Source of the DNA: a virus
Length of the DNA: 36,556 nucleotides
Reading direction: 5' to 3' (one strand)
Virus record (IMG/VR): IMGVR_UViG_3300034101_002578
Location: 1-36,556 of that record
Positions 9,260-33,250 of the stretch are shown here, piece by piece (position 1 is the first letter of the stretch; every line of letters starts with the position of its first letter). Both the position numbers and the translations under genes were made by a program. The notes under the pieces are model-generated. The model ran no database searches, was not told where the DNA came from, and saw nothing but the letters and a program-made list of their open reading frames with translations.

Positions 9260-10576
9260 TTAACTCCACATACTCATTTGGGCCTTGTTGATATAATACC
9301 AATAATACATTCTAGCCATTGCGGTTTGAATGTAGTTTTCATTTAGCTCAACGCCAACAAATGATTTTGATTCAAGTATTGCAGCGCATCCAGTTGTACC
9401 GCTTCCAAGAAACGGATCAAGCACAATCCCCCCATCTGGGGTGACAAGTCTGACAAGATGTCGCATTAACTCAATTGGTTTTACGGTTGTGTGGCCATTT
9501 TTTATAGTGGTGTTTGAGTGGTCAAAAAAATTAATCATCGATTCACTTATTGTGTATACATCATTTGCTTTTTTAAAATTACACATAATACCAAGATTTT
9601 TTTCTGATGCAGACGCTCTTGGAACAAAAAAGAAACTTGAATTATTTTCAATACTTTTAGACACAAAATCGTCAACAATTATGTTTGCTGGCCACTTGTC
9701 TTTTATCATGCATGATTTGATGTTTATAGCTCCAACTCCATGTGTTATCATGTTTTCTGCTATTGTAGTTACCATTGGTTTTCTGGCCAAAACAATTGGA
9801 TTATGAGATGGTTTTAGCCCAGTCCCCCATCCATCAAACTTCTTTGCATTTTCTGTAGCATTGGCCGTCATTGCCACCTTTACTTTTTTAGAATCCTGCA
9901 GTGGCATATGTAAGTGTTTTGATGTTGTCAATGTTTTGTAAATGACTTGCCCATGTTCATCTGTTTGAACATCACGTTCGGCCTCGACGCGCATAATCAA
10001 ATCATCCCAATCATTATTTAATTCTAGTTTCGGCTTTATAATTTCATAGTCTTCTTTTGTCGGGACTCGAATATTGTTACTGTTCCTACTCTCCCAGTGC
10101 TGGCACTTACTGGTGGACTCAACCCAGCTATTCACATCGTCAACCGTGTAGCCAAGTTTAACTCTTTGCGACTTGATGTATTTCCCAAGCGCAAACTTGT
10201 CTTCAAGTTTAACTCCGTTTATTTTGTCAATTGCTTTTGATATATTGTGGCTTTTTGGGAACCCGTTTTTGTAAATCCACACTAAACAATCCCTTATCTC
10301 GAACCCTGATTTTTCAATTGCAATTGCTAAGTGGTGATATAAGCGCGGGAATCCGAATGCTATCACATGACCACCCGGCTTAAGCACTCGATAGCACTCT
10401 TTCCATAATTCAACATCAAATGCAATGCCAGTTGAATCCCACTCTTCTTTTAGAATCGAGATTTCATTTGATAGTGAGTATGGCGGATCTGTAACAACAG
10501 AATCAATACTGCAATCGCTTATTGATTTCAGTTTATCAATGCAATTGCCATGATAAACAGTGGCTATGTTTGTCAT
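9260..10576 (-). CDS. N4/N6 DNA methyltransferase with inserted HTH-like domain
   Basis: Transfers methyl from SAM to an exocyclic amine of A or C in DNA. The catalytic TDPPY motif lies at residues 30-33, the V-L-K-P-G-G motif soon after, and the SAM-binding LDPFLGSGTTG near the C-terminus, which is the beta-class order. Between them, around residues 130-190, sits an XRE-like insert (KYIKSQRVKLGYTVDDVNSW ... WES ... PTKEDY) that could recognise DNA. The ATG at 10576 is preceded by GAGGT 8 nt away; longer in-frame upstream sequence is antisense to the zinc-ribbon gene. No restriction endonuclease partner is seen, so protection against host restriction is likely. Confidence 0.9.
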   Translation of the reverse strand: MTNIATVYHGNCIDKLKSISDCSIDSVVTDPPYSLSNEISILKEEWDSTGIAFDVELWKECYRVLKPGGHVIAFGFPRLYHHLAIAIEKSGFEIRDCLVWIYKNGFPKSHNISKAIDKINGVKLEDKFALGKYIKSQRVKLGYTVDDVNSWVESTSKCQHWESRNSNNIRVPTKEDYEIIKPKLELNNDWDDLIMRVEAERDVQTDEHGQVIYKTLTTSKHLHMPLQDSKKVKVAMTANATENAKKFDGWGTGLKPSHNPIVLARKPMVTTIAENMITHGVGAINIKSCMIKDKWPANIIVDDFVSKSIENNSSFFFVPRASASEKNLGIMCNFKKANDVYTISESMINFFDHSNTTIKNGHTTVKPIELMRHLVRLVTPDGGIVLDPFLGSGTTGCAAILESKSFVGVELNENYIQTAMARMYYWYYINKAQMSMWS

Positions 10577-10643
10577 TGTGATAACCTCATACAATATCGG
10601 TGATATAATACCAAACAAACAAGGCCAATAATACGAGGATAGC

Positions 10644-10844
10644 ATGCTTGACAGTCTAAATCCACCAAAATCGTGTTCCATTTGCAGTGTAGAGCAAACA
10701 GAACACGATGAATTCTTCACTGGCTACATTGGCATTGTTGGCGTTTCTTTTTGCGACGTTTGCCTTGACGCGCTGGTTGACATGGTCGTTCAACTTCAGA
10801 AAAACCCAATGCTATTAGAGTTGAAAGGTGGCGTCCAAGATTAG
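10644..10844 (+). CDS. Small zinc-ribbon protein, paralogue of the 24.6 kb gene
   Basis: A 66-residue protein with two CxxC pairs (CSIC near residue 11 and CDVC near residue 37) separated by 22 residues, followed by an amphipathic LDALVDMVVQL helix. This is a treble-clef or zinc-ribbon layout. It is the only plus-strand gene inside the long minus-strand block and is divergent from the methyltransferase. A TATAAT lies at 10604-10609 and ATACGAGGATAGC precedes the ATG. The 57-residue gene at 24604 has the same layout. Function unknown; DNA or protein binding is plausible. Confidence 0.65.
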   Translation: MLDSLNPPKSCSICSVEQTEHDEFFTGYIGIVGVSFCDVCLDALVDMVVQLQKNPMLLELKGGVQD

Positions 10845-14469: not shown

Positions 14470-14641
14470 ACACAAAGTTGCGCCAGGCCCCAGATACCGC
14501 TATCGCAAAAAATGCGTAGGTCGATAAAGGGTTTAGCCCAGCGCCGCAAATATTGTACCACCAAATTGTGTAATGTAATGTGTTCGCTGTAATCAGACAC
14601 CGCGGATAGCGCAAAGCGCGACAGCGTTTTGTTTATATATA
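14470..14641. other. Intergenic DNA between promoter element and iteron array
   Basis: Part of the 365-base gene-free stretch 14413-14777. No convincing coding frame is seen; short frames here lack ribosome sites and overlap the promoter. It includes GCGC-rich sequence at 14606-14625 and a run of alternating TA at 14632-14642 that forms the AT-rich side of the iteron array. Confidence 0.5.
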
Positions 14642-14750
14642 TATTATCTTTATATGGTAGAAAAAACTTCTATACTTGATTAGAAAAAACTTCTATACTT
14701 TGGCATAACTATAGAAATAACTTCTATACTTACCATAGAAATAACTTCTA
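14642..14750 (-). repeat. Iteron array with AT-rich flank: candidate second origin
   Basis: Four palindromic 15-mers of the form TAGAA-N5-TTCTA lie at 14658-14672, 14681-14695, 14712-14726 and 14736-14750, each followed by TACTT, so they are also direct repeats of 20 bp. On the minus strand they lead into a 21-bp sequence at 14662-14642 that is identical to 23351-23371 in the initiator gene, and then into alternating TA. This is the layout of an iteron origin with an unwinding region. Confidence 0.75.
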
Positions 14751-14777
14751 TACTTTGCCCGAAAAACTTTTTACGAT

Positions 14778-22956: not shown

Positions 22957-23754
22957 ATGCACTACACACGTATACCGCAGTCATTCTTTGATTTGTTGCC
23001 ACAACTATCCGGTGCCGATGCCAAAATACTGATTGCGGTATACCGGTGTACGCTTGGATGGAACAAGCATTCAGCCATTATCAGCCTATCGGTAATGGCC
23101 AAGCATACTGGCATAACGACACGTCAGATCACCGAATCAATCAAGCGCATTAAGCAGCTGGGAGTTGTTACCATAGAACAAACAACCAAGGGATATCGGT
23201 ATACCATAGAAGAAAGTGCTAGTGTTCACAGTGCGGTAGAAGATACTTCTATAGAAGATATTTCTATAGTTTTAGAACAAAGTGTAGAAGATATTTCTAT
23301 AGTTTCAGAACAAAGTATAGAAGAAACTTCTAATAAAGTATCGAAAAAACTTCTACCATATAAAGATAATAAAGATATAAATACAACATCTGACGATGTT
23401 GTACGCAAACCGCCACGCAAATCTAGATCCAAACAAAAAGAACACCCACCAGAAAAACCGCCAGCAGAACGAACCGCATTGACGGTGTTTCGATCAATCC
23501 ACCGACTAAACGTACCTATTGCGGTGCGCGAAACGGTATCATCTGTGGCAACAGATTTGGATAGGTGGGAACAAATTTGTACCGAATGGATTTCACGTGG
23601 GTATCGACCCGGCAACGTGTCGGGTTGTTTAGCAGTGTACGAGAATGGATGGAACAAAAATGACAGACGACCAGCACAACGACAACGCGGAGATGTACAA
23701 GAACAAGTCCGTAATGCGCGGATGGAACAAAACATTGCCGAATACCTCGGATAA
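22957..23754 (+). CDS. Replication initiator, lambda O-like
   Basis: A 265-residue protein. Residues 1-90 form a winged helix typical of phage replication protein O N-termini: RIPQSFFDLLPQLSGADAKI, then YRCTLGWNKHSA and ITTRQITESIKRIKQLGVV. The middle (residues about 90-150) is low-complexity acidic/Ser sequence encoded by iterons, and the C-terminal part is a basic segment with a helical end suited to bind the helicase or loader. As in lambda, the origin lies inside the gene and the N-terminal domain would bind its iterons. It begins 1 base after the preceding stop and is followed by a DnaC-like loader. Confidence 0.8.
   Translation: MHYTRIPQSFFDLLPQLSGADAKILIAVYRCTLGWNKHSAIISLSVMAKHTGITTRQITESIKRIKQLGVVTIEQTTKGYRYTIEESASVHSAVEDTSIEDISIVLEQSVEDISIVSEQSIEETSNKVSKKLLPYKDNKDINTTSDDVVRKPPRKSRSKQKEHPPEKPPAERTALTVFRSIHRLNVPIAVRETVSSVATDLDRWEQICTEWISRGYRPGNVSGCLAVYENGWNKNDRRPAQRQRGDVQEQVRNARMEQNIAEYLG
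23237..23371 (+). repeat. Iteron array and AT-rich flank inside the initiator gene: candidate origin
   Basis: TAGAA-N5-TTCTA palindromes lie at 23237-23251, 23252-23266, 23285-23299 and 23318-23332, with a one-mismatch copy at 23341-23355. The first two abut. A 21-bp sequence at 23351-23371, shared exactly with 14642-14662, leads into an AT-rich stretch to about 23386. Position in the linker region of an O-like gene matches lambda. Confidence 0.8.
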
Positions 23755-24598
23755 GACTCCACTAGAAAAGATTGGGGTGATCACGCCCGGCATGACTGGG
23801 CGTGAGGTATACGAGGCATCAAAGGCTTATTGGGGTGACTACTACAAGAACCGCGTAAAGAGTAATCGCGCCGTGTCGCTTACGCGCACAAAGCCGTGGG
23901 TCGAGGGGTGTAAGTGCGACGGCGCTGGCTGGTACATGCTTGACGTTGACCCAATGGATTATCGGTATCGGCAGTTACAGCGATGCCAGTGTAACGGCGC
24001 TGGTGGGGCGTTTCGCAATTCGCTTCACTTGTTTAACACAGAAACATTTGAGGCATTCGACGTGGCCCGCAAAATGGAACCGTTTCGATCTGGCGGTGTG
24101 CTTATATCAGTAGAGATGCAACAGCGATTAATCACAAAGGCATACGACACCCTTATTGACGACGACCACAACAACGGCAAAAGCTTTTATTTGTGGGGCA
24201 ATGTTGGGTGTGGCAAGTCGCACTTGGCTCGTGCATGGGCAATGATGTTTGCAGAGCGTGGCCTTAGCGTGGAGTACCGCGCCATTCTCAATCTGATAGG
24301 TGAGTTGATGGCAGCGGTTAAAGATCGGCGCGTCGAACAGGTAATCCAATCAATGATAGACACAGACATTCTAGTCATTGACGACATTGGCGCCGAATCA
24401 GAACAATCAGATTTTGTTCGCAGTTGCATTTTGCGCATCATTGATGGTAGAATGAAAAAGAAGACATTGTATACTAGCAACATCGACCCAAACGATTTGC
24501 GAAATATGATGGACGAGCGCATAGCAGACCGCATAAACCAAAGCACTCGTTTATGGCTTCCATTACAATCATATCGCAATTTGCTAAGAAAGGAGTGA
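23660..24598 (+). CDS. DnaC/IstB-like helicase loader ATPase
   Basis: About 312 residues. Loads the replicative helicase at the origin. An N-terminal part contains CKCDGAGW and CQCNGAG, a likely zinc-binding pair. The AAA+ core has Walker A WGNVGCGKSH near residue 183, Walker B ILVIDDIG near 240, sensor 1 TLYTSN, and an Arg-rich DERIADRI motif. No helicase gene is seen, so the host DnaB is probably recruited. The start is uncertain: ATG 23645 or 23660 overlap the initiator by about 100 bp and have only weak ribosome sites; starts further in are possible. Confidence 0.88.
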   Translation: MTDDQHNDNAEMYKNKSVMRGWNKTLPNTSDKTPLEKIGVITPGMTGREVYEASKAYWGDYYKNRVKSNRAVSLTRTKPWVEGCKCDGAGWYMLDVDPMDYRYRQLQRCQCNGAGGAFRNSLHLFNTETFEAFDVARKMEPFRSGGVLISVEMQQRLITKAYDTLIDDDHNNGKSFYLWGNVGCGKSHLARAWAMMFAERGLSVEYRAILNLIGELMAAVKDRRVEQVIQSMIDTDILVIDDIGAESEQSDFVRSCILRIIDGRMKKKTLYTSNIDPNDLRNMMDERIADRINQSTRLWLPLQSYRNLLRKE

Positions 24599-24603
24599 CA
24601 ACA

Positions 24604-24777
24604 ATGAATGAAGTATGTGTGATATGCGATTACACCATTGACGACGAAAGTTACAAAACAACAATCAGTAACGGCCAGTATGGCGATGTTGTGTTTTGTG
24701 CTGACTGTTGGAGTATGATCGTTGACGCAGTGACAAACCACCAAGCCAAGACTAACAACGAAAGCGTAAATCAATGA
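24604..24777 (+). CDS. Small zinc-ribbon protein, paralogue of the 10.6 kb gene
   Basis: A 57-residue protein with CVIC near residue 5 and CADC near residue 32, separated by 23 residues, followed by a WSMIVDAVTNH helix. Same pattern as the 66-residue protein at 10644. AAGGAG lies 8 nt before the ATG at 24604, better than any start further upstream. Its stop overlaps the C5 methyltransferase ATG by 4 nt, so the two are translationally coupled. Function unknown. Confidence 0.65.
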   Translation: MNEVCVICDYTIDDESYKTTISNGQYGDVVFCADCWSMIVDAVTNHQAKTNNESVNQ

Positions 24778-25796: not shown

Positions 25797-26412
25797 GTGG
25801 TCAGAACAAGAAGTCAACCAACTTAAGGCAATGGACAAAATGGGGTTGACGGCAATGCAGATTTCAAAACTGGTAGACAAGTCGGTTCATGCGGTGCAGA
25901 TGAAACTTAATCGCACCAAGACCGATGAGGTTGTTGACATTATCTCAACCCCAGAGTTGGCCGAAAAAATCGGCATGATAAGAACAAACCTAAGCCAGTA
26001 CCTAAAACGAAGTGGCATCAAGCCATACCTCGTTCGCAAGAAAGCGCTGTACTACAAGAAGTCTGATGTCCAAAAATTAATGGATAACGGATTTGCACTT
26101 GTGTGCGTGTCGCACCACGAGCGCAAACAAAATGACGTGTGGGACATGGTGAATGAGTCAATGTCAAGGCTTGATCTTGTTACCACTCGCGAAAAAATCT
26201 GCAAGGCTTTTGGAGTATACAATTCAAGTGTTGGTTACTGGCTAAGTAACATGCAGTTCCCAGCCCCAATTGCTAGAATTCACAATGTGGGTCACATTTT
26301 TAACATTGCAGAGGTGGAAGAATGGGCGAAGAAAAACCAGAGGACTCATGGGTCGCTAAAAATCAGCGCCGAAGAATTCACTCAAAGCAATGGTTTTCAA
26401 GATGGGGAGTAG
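25786..26412 (+). CDS. Multi-helix-turn-helix DNA-binding protein, paralogue of the 11.2 kb gene
   Basis: A 208-residue protein starting with GTG; GGAGG lies 6 nt upstream. Module 1 (RWSEQEVNQLKAMDKMGLTA) is SANT/homeodomain-like; module 2 (STPELAEKIGMIRTNLSQYL) and module 3 (TREKICKAFGVYNSSVGYWL) are HTH, with MerR/excisionase-like wings after each. The order is the same as in the protein at 11210-11857. It overlaps the methyltransferase stop by 11 bp. A transcription regulator or recombination-directionality role are both possible. Confidence 0.65.
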   Translation: MATRWSEQEVNQLKAMDKMGLTAMQISKLVDKSVHAVQMKLNRTKTDEVVDIISTPELAEKIGMIRTNLSQYLKRSGIKPYLVRKKALYYKKSDVQKLMDNGFALVCVSHHERKQNDVWDMVNESMSRLDLVTTREKICKAFGVYNSSVGYWLSNMQFPAPIARIHNVGHIFNIAEVEEWAKKNQRTHGSLKISAEEFTQSNGFQDGE

Positions 26413-26834
26413 TTCTGCCATACCCACCAAGTATTAATCATGCGTACATGATAAGAAATGGCAGGAAGATACTTAAACAAGAAGTGTCAGAATACAAACA
26501 ATCAGTGACGCTTATGGTTTCAAACGCCAAGCAAAAGTTTGGCAATGTACCACTGCCATTTCAGATGTTTGTGTATGTGTATCCCCCAGACAGACGCAAG
26601 CGAGATCTTGATAACATTATTAAGGTAATGCAGGATGGTGTGTGTTCGGGGTTGAACATAGACGACTCAAACATTGTGTCAGTTGCGGCAATACGGTGTG
26701 ACGCGGTAAAACACGGGATGGTCGAGATAGTGTTCACGGAGTGTAATGCTGACGTATGGAGCGCACGATTTGGCAAATGTCGTTTAGATAGGATTGAGAT
26801 GTTTGGTTTTTCATTGCCAGATCGCCAAATGTAA
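26322..26834 (+). CDS. rusA: RusA-family Holliday junction resolvase
   Basis: A 170-residue enzyme that cuts four-way DNA junctions. The RusA hallmarks are VLPYPPSINHAY near residue 35 and PPDRRKRDLDNIIKVMQDGV then CSGLNIDDSNIVSV around residues 88-120; the Asp residues (RDLDN, IDDS) are the metal-binding set. The first 28 residues overlap the preceding gene by 91 bp; GAGGTGG before the ATG supports this start. The last 101 bp overlap a convergent tail gene. It fits a recombination-linked replication and packaging scheme. Confidence 0.88.
   Translation: MGEEKPEDSWVAKNQRRRIHSKQWFSRWGVVLPYPPSINHAYMIRNGRKILKQEVSEYKQSVTLMVSNAKQKFGNVPLPFQMFVYVYPPDRRKRDLDNIIKVMQDGVCSGLNIDDSNIVSVAAIRCDAVKHGMVEIVFTECNADVWSARFGKCRLDRIEMFGFSLPDRQM

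Positions 26835-29859: not shown

Positions 29860-29860
<1 letters not shown>
28391..29860 (-). CDS. Putative distal tail (Dit-like) or minor tail protein
   Basis: A 489-residue, beta-rich protein directly after the tape measure (TAATG overlap), the usual place for the distal tail protein that joins tube and tip. It begins MYGSWGKYYAPLHLNN and contains several strand-rich repeats with Thr/Ser/Asn. No catalytic motif was seen. Length is greater than a minimal Dit, so extra carbohydrate-binding-like modules may be present. Assigned by position and composition. Confidence 0.6.
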
Positions 29861-33045
<3,185 letters not shown>

Positions 33046-33046
33046 T

Positions 33047-33250
33047 TTACAACCCGTTCTTAAATGACCGAACCTTGCCCTCGGCGGACAAAGCCGTAAG
33101 CAACGGCAATAATAAGTGAAGCGGCTCTTTTTCGAGCGCACTCGGTAGGCAGTTAAACTCTCTACAGAGCCGCAACACCAGCAGTTCAATTGGCGGATCT
33201 TCAGTTCCGGTGTGCAGGTGCGCCATTACCCGAAACTCTAGGCTTTTCCC
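33047..33250 (-). CDS. Tail assembly chaperone, -1 frameshift extension (gpT-like)
   Basis: Beyond the slip site 33250-33244 the -1 frame is open for 65 codons, KSLEFRVMAHLHTGTEDPPI and on, ending at 33049-33047, one base before the tape-measure ATG. Fused to the upstream chaperone it gives about 152 residues. In lambda and related siphoviruses the equivalent gpGT binds the tape measure during tail assembly while gpG alone coats it. An internal ATG at 33226 could make a separate 59-residue protein instead. Confidence 0.75.
   Translation of the reverse strand, partial: GKSLEFRVMAHLHTGTEDPPIELLVLRLCREFNCLPSALEKEPLHLLLPLLTALSAEGKVRSFKNGL

Follow-up and report, generated by a model that had tools for sequence, protein, structure and literature searches.

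This study revealed that an unclassified bacterial virus has two arrays built from the same palindromic iterons, each bordered by AT-rich DNA: array 1, within the gene of its replication initiator, and array 2, in an intergenic region beside the lysis genes. Judged from its sequence features, array 2 is a predicted second initiator-binding site that co-evolves with array 1 and includes a putative unwinding element. It probably represents a second, oriR-like origin element at which the phage's own O-type initiator acts. The analysed DNA (the window, 36,556 nucleotides) is a whole virus record, and as its ends overlap by 127 bp, the record was taken as a complete circular assembly, with a genome of 36.4 kb.

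Results

Array 2 comprises four perfect TAGAA-N5-TTCTA units (14658-14750), each followed by TACTT, at 14658-14672 (TAGAAAAAACTTCTA; the unit closest to the AT-rich tract), 14681-14695, 14712-14726 (TAGAAATAACTTCTA) and 14736-14750 (TAGAAATAACTTCTA), all on the plus strand. The second unit lies 23 bp from the first, a spacing of the last two units that recurred in all origins of the family examined. Unit 1 overlaps a 21-mer, TATTATCTTTATATGGTAGAA (14642-14662, plus strand), which is the exact reverse complement of positions 23351-23371 at array 1, and beside this 21-mer lies alternating TA (14633-14643). The AT-rich, easily melted tract of array 2 (14632-14657, unstranded), which includes TATATATATATTATCTTTATATGG, was recognised by 50-mer stability and is a putative DNA-unwinding element. 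Around the 21-mer, the inverted match between the two sites extends over 77 nt with 81% identity (14626-14702 versus 23311-23387), the AT-rich flank being to the left of array 2 but to the right of array 1. The first-pass annotation had described these units, the shared 21-bp sequence, the alternating TA and the same order of elements in opposite orientation, and each of these was recovered. It had also named many similar palindromes elsewhere as grounds for doubt; TAGAA-N5-TTCTA was found nowhere outside the two arrays in the whole virus record. A chance origin of the arrays was rejected, since eight perfect palindromes were observed in the window, all of them within arrays 1 and 2, whereas dinucleotide shuffles had 0.01 on average and at most 1, and since alignment of the two sites (23250-23387 with 14626-14752) gave E = 5e-24. 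Array 2 is situated downstream of the holin gene, with the lysis genes and a tRNA-Met gene on one side and a leftward late gene cluster on the other.

Array 1 (23237-23355, plus strand) lies within the gene of a lambda-O-type replication initiator of 265 amino acids (22957-23754, plus strand), which matched PF04492 (Phage_rep_O; E=2.7e-9, 37.9 bits for a cut-off of 28.7) and the PHROG 'replication initiation O-like' (1.3e-15). Its AlphaFold model, of modest confidence (mean pLDDT 68), exhibits a winged-helix N-domain (residues 8-84), an unordered linker (88-163), for which the iterons and the AT tract code, and a helical region at the C-terminus (174-264). A sequence search of the PDB with the initiator returned no match, and a fold search returned generic winged-helix matches only, none with E < 0.001. 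Perfect units start at 23237, 23252, 23285 and 23318. A fifth, degenerate unit with one mismatch (TCGAA-N5-TTCTA, 23341-23355), missed in the first-pass annotation, overlaps the 21-mer, which gives array 1 five units, the degenerate one included, versus four in array 2. Its junction with the border is the same as that of unit 1 in array 2, so that both sites have one and the same geometry, unit-23 bp-unit-CCATATAAAGATA; the architecture common to both arrays is unit-23bp-unit-CCATATAAAGA. The AT-rich flank of array 1, CCATATAAAGATAATAAAGATATAAATACA (23356-23385, plus strand), is likewise a putative unwinding element. Mid-gene iterons followed by an AT-rich tract, a feature of O-type intragenic origins, are present here, and so is a helicase-loader gene directly downstream of the initiator gene: a DnaC-like gene that overlaps it (23645-24598, plus strand; PHROG DnaC-like 4.9e-35; IstB/DnaA ATPase Pfam). 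With these features, array 1 is predicted to be a classic O-gene origin with a lambda-O-type initiator.

With regard to other functions, scans identified no replicative helicase gene and no integrase among the proteins examined, and a terminase search of cellular genome contigs for the host found no relative. We also identified a gene for a RusA-like Holliday junction resolvase (26322-26834, plus strand; PF05866 1.6e-9; PHROG 6.6e-21), which may take part in late replication that depends on recombination.

Relatives were identified in IMG/VR, comprising the genomes G001 (36,973 b), G002 (41,764 b) and G036 (32,853 b), the contigs G038, G039 and G042, and G003, a contig of 17 kb that lacks the initiator gene. 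The initiators of G001, G002 and G036 are 71%, 47% and 48% identical to that of the window, respectively. Among GenBank phages, tblastn with the window initiator found no close relative, and the G002 initiator gave weak matches to the N-domain only. The set of viruses appears, from these searches, to be a phage family without isolated members. Another 26 contigs with two loosely spaced TAGAA-N5-TTCTA units were tested, found to have no Phage_rep_O gene and treated as unrelated or chance occurrences.

Iterons followed by an AT-rich tract were found at the same place, mid-gene, in all seven initiator genes, that of the window included. Array 2 occupies the same syntenic place, by the holin and amidase genes, in all five genomes that cover it (the window, G001, G002, G003 and G036), so that the conservation in relatives suggested as a check by the first-pass annotation was seen in four of four; this count leaves out G038 and G042, which have no lysis region, and G039, which ends in the amidase gene just short of the site. 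A stretch of about 120 bp at array 2 is 90-91% identical in the window and G001, compared with an average of 72% for alignable windows, which places it among the three most conserved 120-bp windows of this pair, even though it is non-coding. G002 and G003 are 91% identical here over 150 bp. The neighbours of array 2 vary and include tRNA-Met in the window, a methyltransferase gene in G001 and a dnaN-type gene in G036. The DNA methyltransferase gene of the window (9260-10720) lies by the ParB-like and terminase genes, whereas its best match in G001 (L005:3205-4410) adjoins array 2; the neighbours of the array were thus exchanged while the array itself stayed.

Several further observations concern these surroundings. 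The gene in G036 encodes a DNA polymerase III beta clamp (PF00712), and its start lies about 120 bp past array 2 (L072:12433 onwards; about 32433 in G036), while no beta-clamp gene was seen beside array 2 in the window. Three tRNA-like genes, one of them of 102 nt, lie just before array 2 in G001 (L005:2627-2891) and are found by Rfam but missed by ARAGORN. The single tRNA-Met of the window is on the opposite side of the array from them.

The two arrays also vary together. In the divergent relatives, the half-site TAGAA is changed to TAGCA or TTGCA, and within a given genome this change affects both arrays. GCA-type half-sites account for 0/10 in the O gene and 0/8 in array 2 of the window, and for 0/8 and 0/8 in G001, 6/8 and 5/10 in G002, and 5/6 and 9/10 in G036, respectively. 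The AT border co-varies as well, being AAATAAAG in the O gene of G002 and the array of G003, and CATATAAAG in the others. The presumed recognition helix of the initiator tracks the iteron class, with TTRQITES in the window and G001 versus S[VI]RQIS in the rest. As array 2 is non-coding, the switch of half-sites there does not result from coding constraint. Since its spacers are kept between genomes yet differ from the O-gene spacers, more than recent copying is indicated. Part of the co-variation could stem from concerted evolution, through recombination of one site with the other, and the main weakness of this pattern is that it rests on essentially three lineages.

With regard to DNA stability, the 50-mer from 14632, in the flank of array 2, is the least stable in the window (-49.4 kcal/mol, versus a mean of -68.8 and a standard deviation of 4.7 kcal/mol), and the second least stable region is the flank of array 1 (50-mer at 23333, -51.4 kcal/mol). 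The least stable 50-mer is likewise the array 2 flank in G001 and G002. In the four genomes that have both sites, the unwinding tracts always point away from each other, and the arrays are 8.6 (in the window), 9.7, 13.0 and about 10.4 kb apart. In three genomes, cumulative GC skew reaches its minimum at a distance of 1.2-2.4 kb from array 2, which lends weak support because it coincides with a divergent transcription boundary. GC skew was not accepted as proof of origin use, given that it is confounded by gene orientation and that, at third codon positions, a strong skew is confined to the region around 15-19 kb. The cumulative skew minimum of the window is at 15933, and the adjacent weakly coding region (15950-18000) exhibits extreme strand asymmetry (its plus strand is rich in G and T, with GC skew reaching +0.3 and AT skew reaching -0.47) and contains numerous imperfect GTGTCGGTGTCGG-type repeats.

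Other repeats were observed in the genome. The element TAGTTCTACTCGGCCCAAAAATTCGCGCGGATTTTGCCGTACC precedes early genes at 17822-17851, 19263-19338 and 20146-20221, with a partial copy at 21268-21295; copies occur in G001 at 24730 and 23744, and it is absent from the more distant relatives. It is possibly a phage-specific promoter or antitermination element. In addition, a (CCA/CCG)n repeat (32594-32691) encodes a long poly-glycine run in a tape-measure-like ORF (29860-33189), the match of which to its G001 counterpart begins only past this repeat.

Discussion

As would be looked for in a two-origin replicon, the repeats of the intragenic site recur far away, between genes, and are again accompanied by an AT-rich element. 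The first-pass annotation had suggested either two initiator-dependent origins or an arrangement for looping or incompatibility-type control. The synteny, the half-site co-variation, the shared architecture and the unwinding-prone flanks strongly support the former in the sense of two origin-like sites, and nothing specific supports the latter. On this evidence, the same initiator very probably binds array 2, and array 2 may well be able to initiate replication, a step that we favour with less assurance. Dimers of the winged-helix initiator would bind the palindromic iterons at both the intragenic and the intergenic sites, and the bound initiator would unwind the neighbouring AT-rich tract and attract the DnaC-like loader together with the host helicase. 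The intragenic site would be the presumed early theta origin. The intergenic site, by the lysis and late genes, may serve as a second (late) origin, as an initiator-bound fork barrier, or as both, and such a barrier could help to switch replication to a concatemer-forming mode. By analogy with SPP1, a theta-to-sigma switch as the main role of array 2 is conceivable, but we lean against it. We also put forward, tentatively and at somewhat less than even confidence, a broader model: one lambda-O-type initiator would drive two divergently oriented, co-evolving origins in an unrecognised phage family, and the intergenic late-region copy would bring about the change from theta to concatemeric replication, either by firing or by blocking forks. 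The SPP1 scheme would then have evolved independently here, around a different replication module.

Array 2 could alternatively be an operator for late or lysis transcription that is bound by the initiator and couples expression to replication without being an origin. The array does lie beside lysis genes in all genomes and has weak promoter-like matches close by. Nevertheless, an operator has no need of a duplicated AT-rich tract and border, both of which co-vary with the O-gene copy and, in three genomes, form the least stable DNA; moreover, the array is downstream of the holin gene, and the adjoining gene differs (tRNA-Met, methyltransferase or dnaN-type). We regard an operator as unlikely. 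It is also rather improbable that array 2 titrates or handcuffs the initiator, controlling the O-gene origin by incompatibility or looping, with no initiation of its own. An initiator could pair arrays that share an iteron within a genome, and lambda replication is inhibited by ectopic copies of the lambda origin (PMC4488673), but neither titration nor pairing requires an unwinding tract. As no integrase was found among the proteins examined, copy-number control of the plasmid type would be unexpected, and a lytic scheme with two origins, like that of SPP1, is the more natural of the two.

The palindromes might instead act as RNA hairpins, forming a processing site or terminator in the leftward transcript, rather than as DNA sites. 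The window array indeed folds well as RNA (z -3.96), although this is a built-in consequence of repeated palindromes. In G002 and G003 the units are asymmetric (TAGAGAAAATTGCTA) and the stems are broken, and hairpins leave the matched AT border and the O-gene copy unexplained, which makes a role in RNA very unlikely. The 77-nt inverted match between the sites is what would be left behind if part of the O-gene origin had recently been duplicated by chance, without any function. We consider this hardly credible, in view of the conserved place across relatives whose initiators are as little as 47-48% identical to that of the window, and of the array 2 spacers, which are maintained across genomes and differ from those of the O gene. 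A second origin element for the O-type initiator is therefore the reading that we prefer.

If a dual origin with a lambda-type initiator is truly conserved, the second site would be a recurrent solution rather than an oddity of SPP1. As iterons and recognition helix change together, these phages would provide a compact natural series for testing the function of a second origin, and for examining how circle-to-circle replication gives way to concatemer replication in phages. O-gene iterons that are repeated once elsewhere would offer a simple bioinformatic signature for finding more such phages.

In the lambda origin, an AT-rich tract follows the iterons, and P, the helicase loader, is encoded directly downstream. 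The lambda iterons lie inside gene O, as array 1 lies inside the initiator gene, and lambda iterons 3 and 4 are likewise 23 bp apart, as are the last two units here; lambda differs in having four 18-bp iterons of unrelated sequence. A second copy of the O-gene origin was not found in six GenBank O-type phages including lambda (for five of which only 27-38.5 kb were examined), and no report of a second O-iteron array was found in the open literature, the coverage of which was incomplete. Phage P1 also has two replication origins in one genome, oriR and oriL, the lytic one presumably being located in the repL gene (PMC9948254). However, the two origins of P1 serve separate replicons, one prophage and one lytic, whereas both sites described here share their iterons.

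To our knowledge, the best-studied dual-origin phage of this kind is SPP1. In this Bacillus phage, oriL lies inside gene 38 and oriR is intergenic in the late region, 12-13 kb away; each has repeats and an AT-rich element, G38P (gp38) binds both, and the oriR-bound initiator is the proposed cause of fork stalling and of the onset of concatemer formation (PMC6316719, PMC3485210). The window resembles this description, with one origin in the initiator gene, one that is intergenic, and repeats and an AT-rich element at both. In contrast to SPP1, its initiator belongs to the lambda-O family (PF04492) and is accompanied by a DnaC-like AAA+ loader, its repeats are palindromes, and the sites of the family are 8.6-13 kb apart with unwinding tracts that face away from each other. 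A two-origin phage replicon is thus already known from SPP1; what is new here is the initiator family with its loader, the palindromic iterons and the back-to-back polarity.
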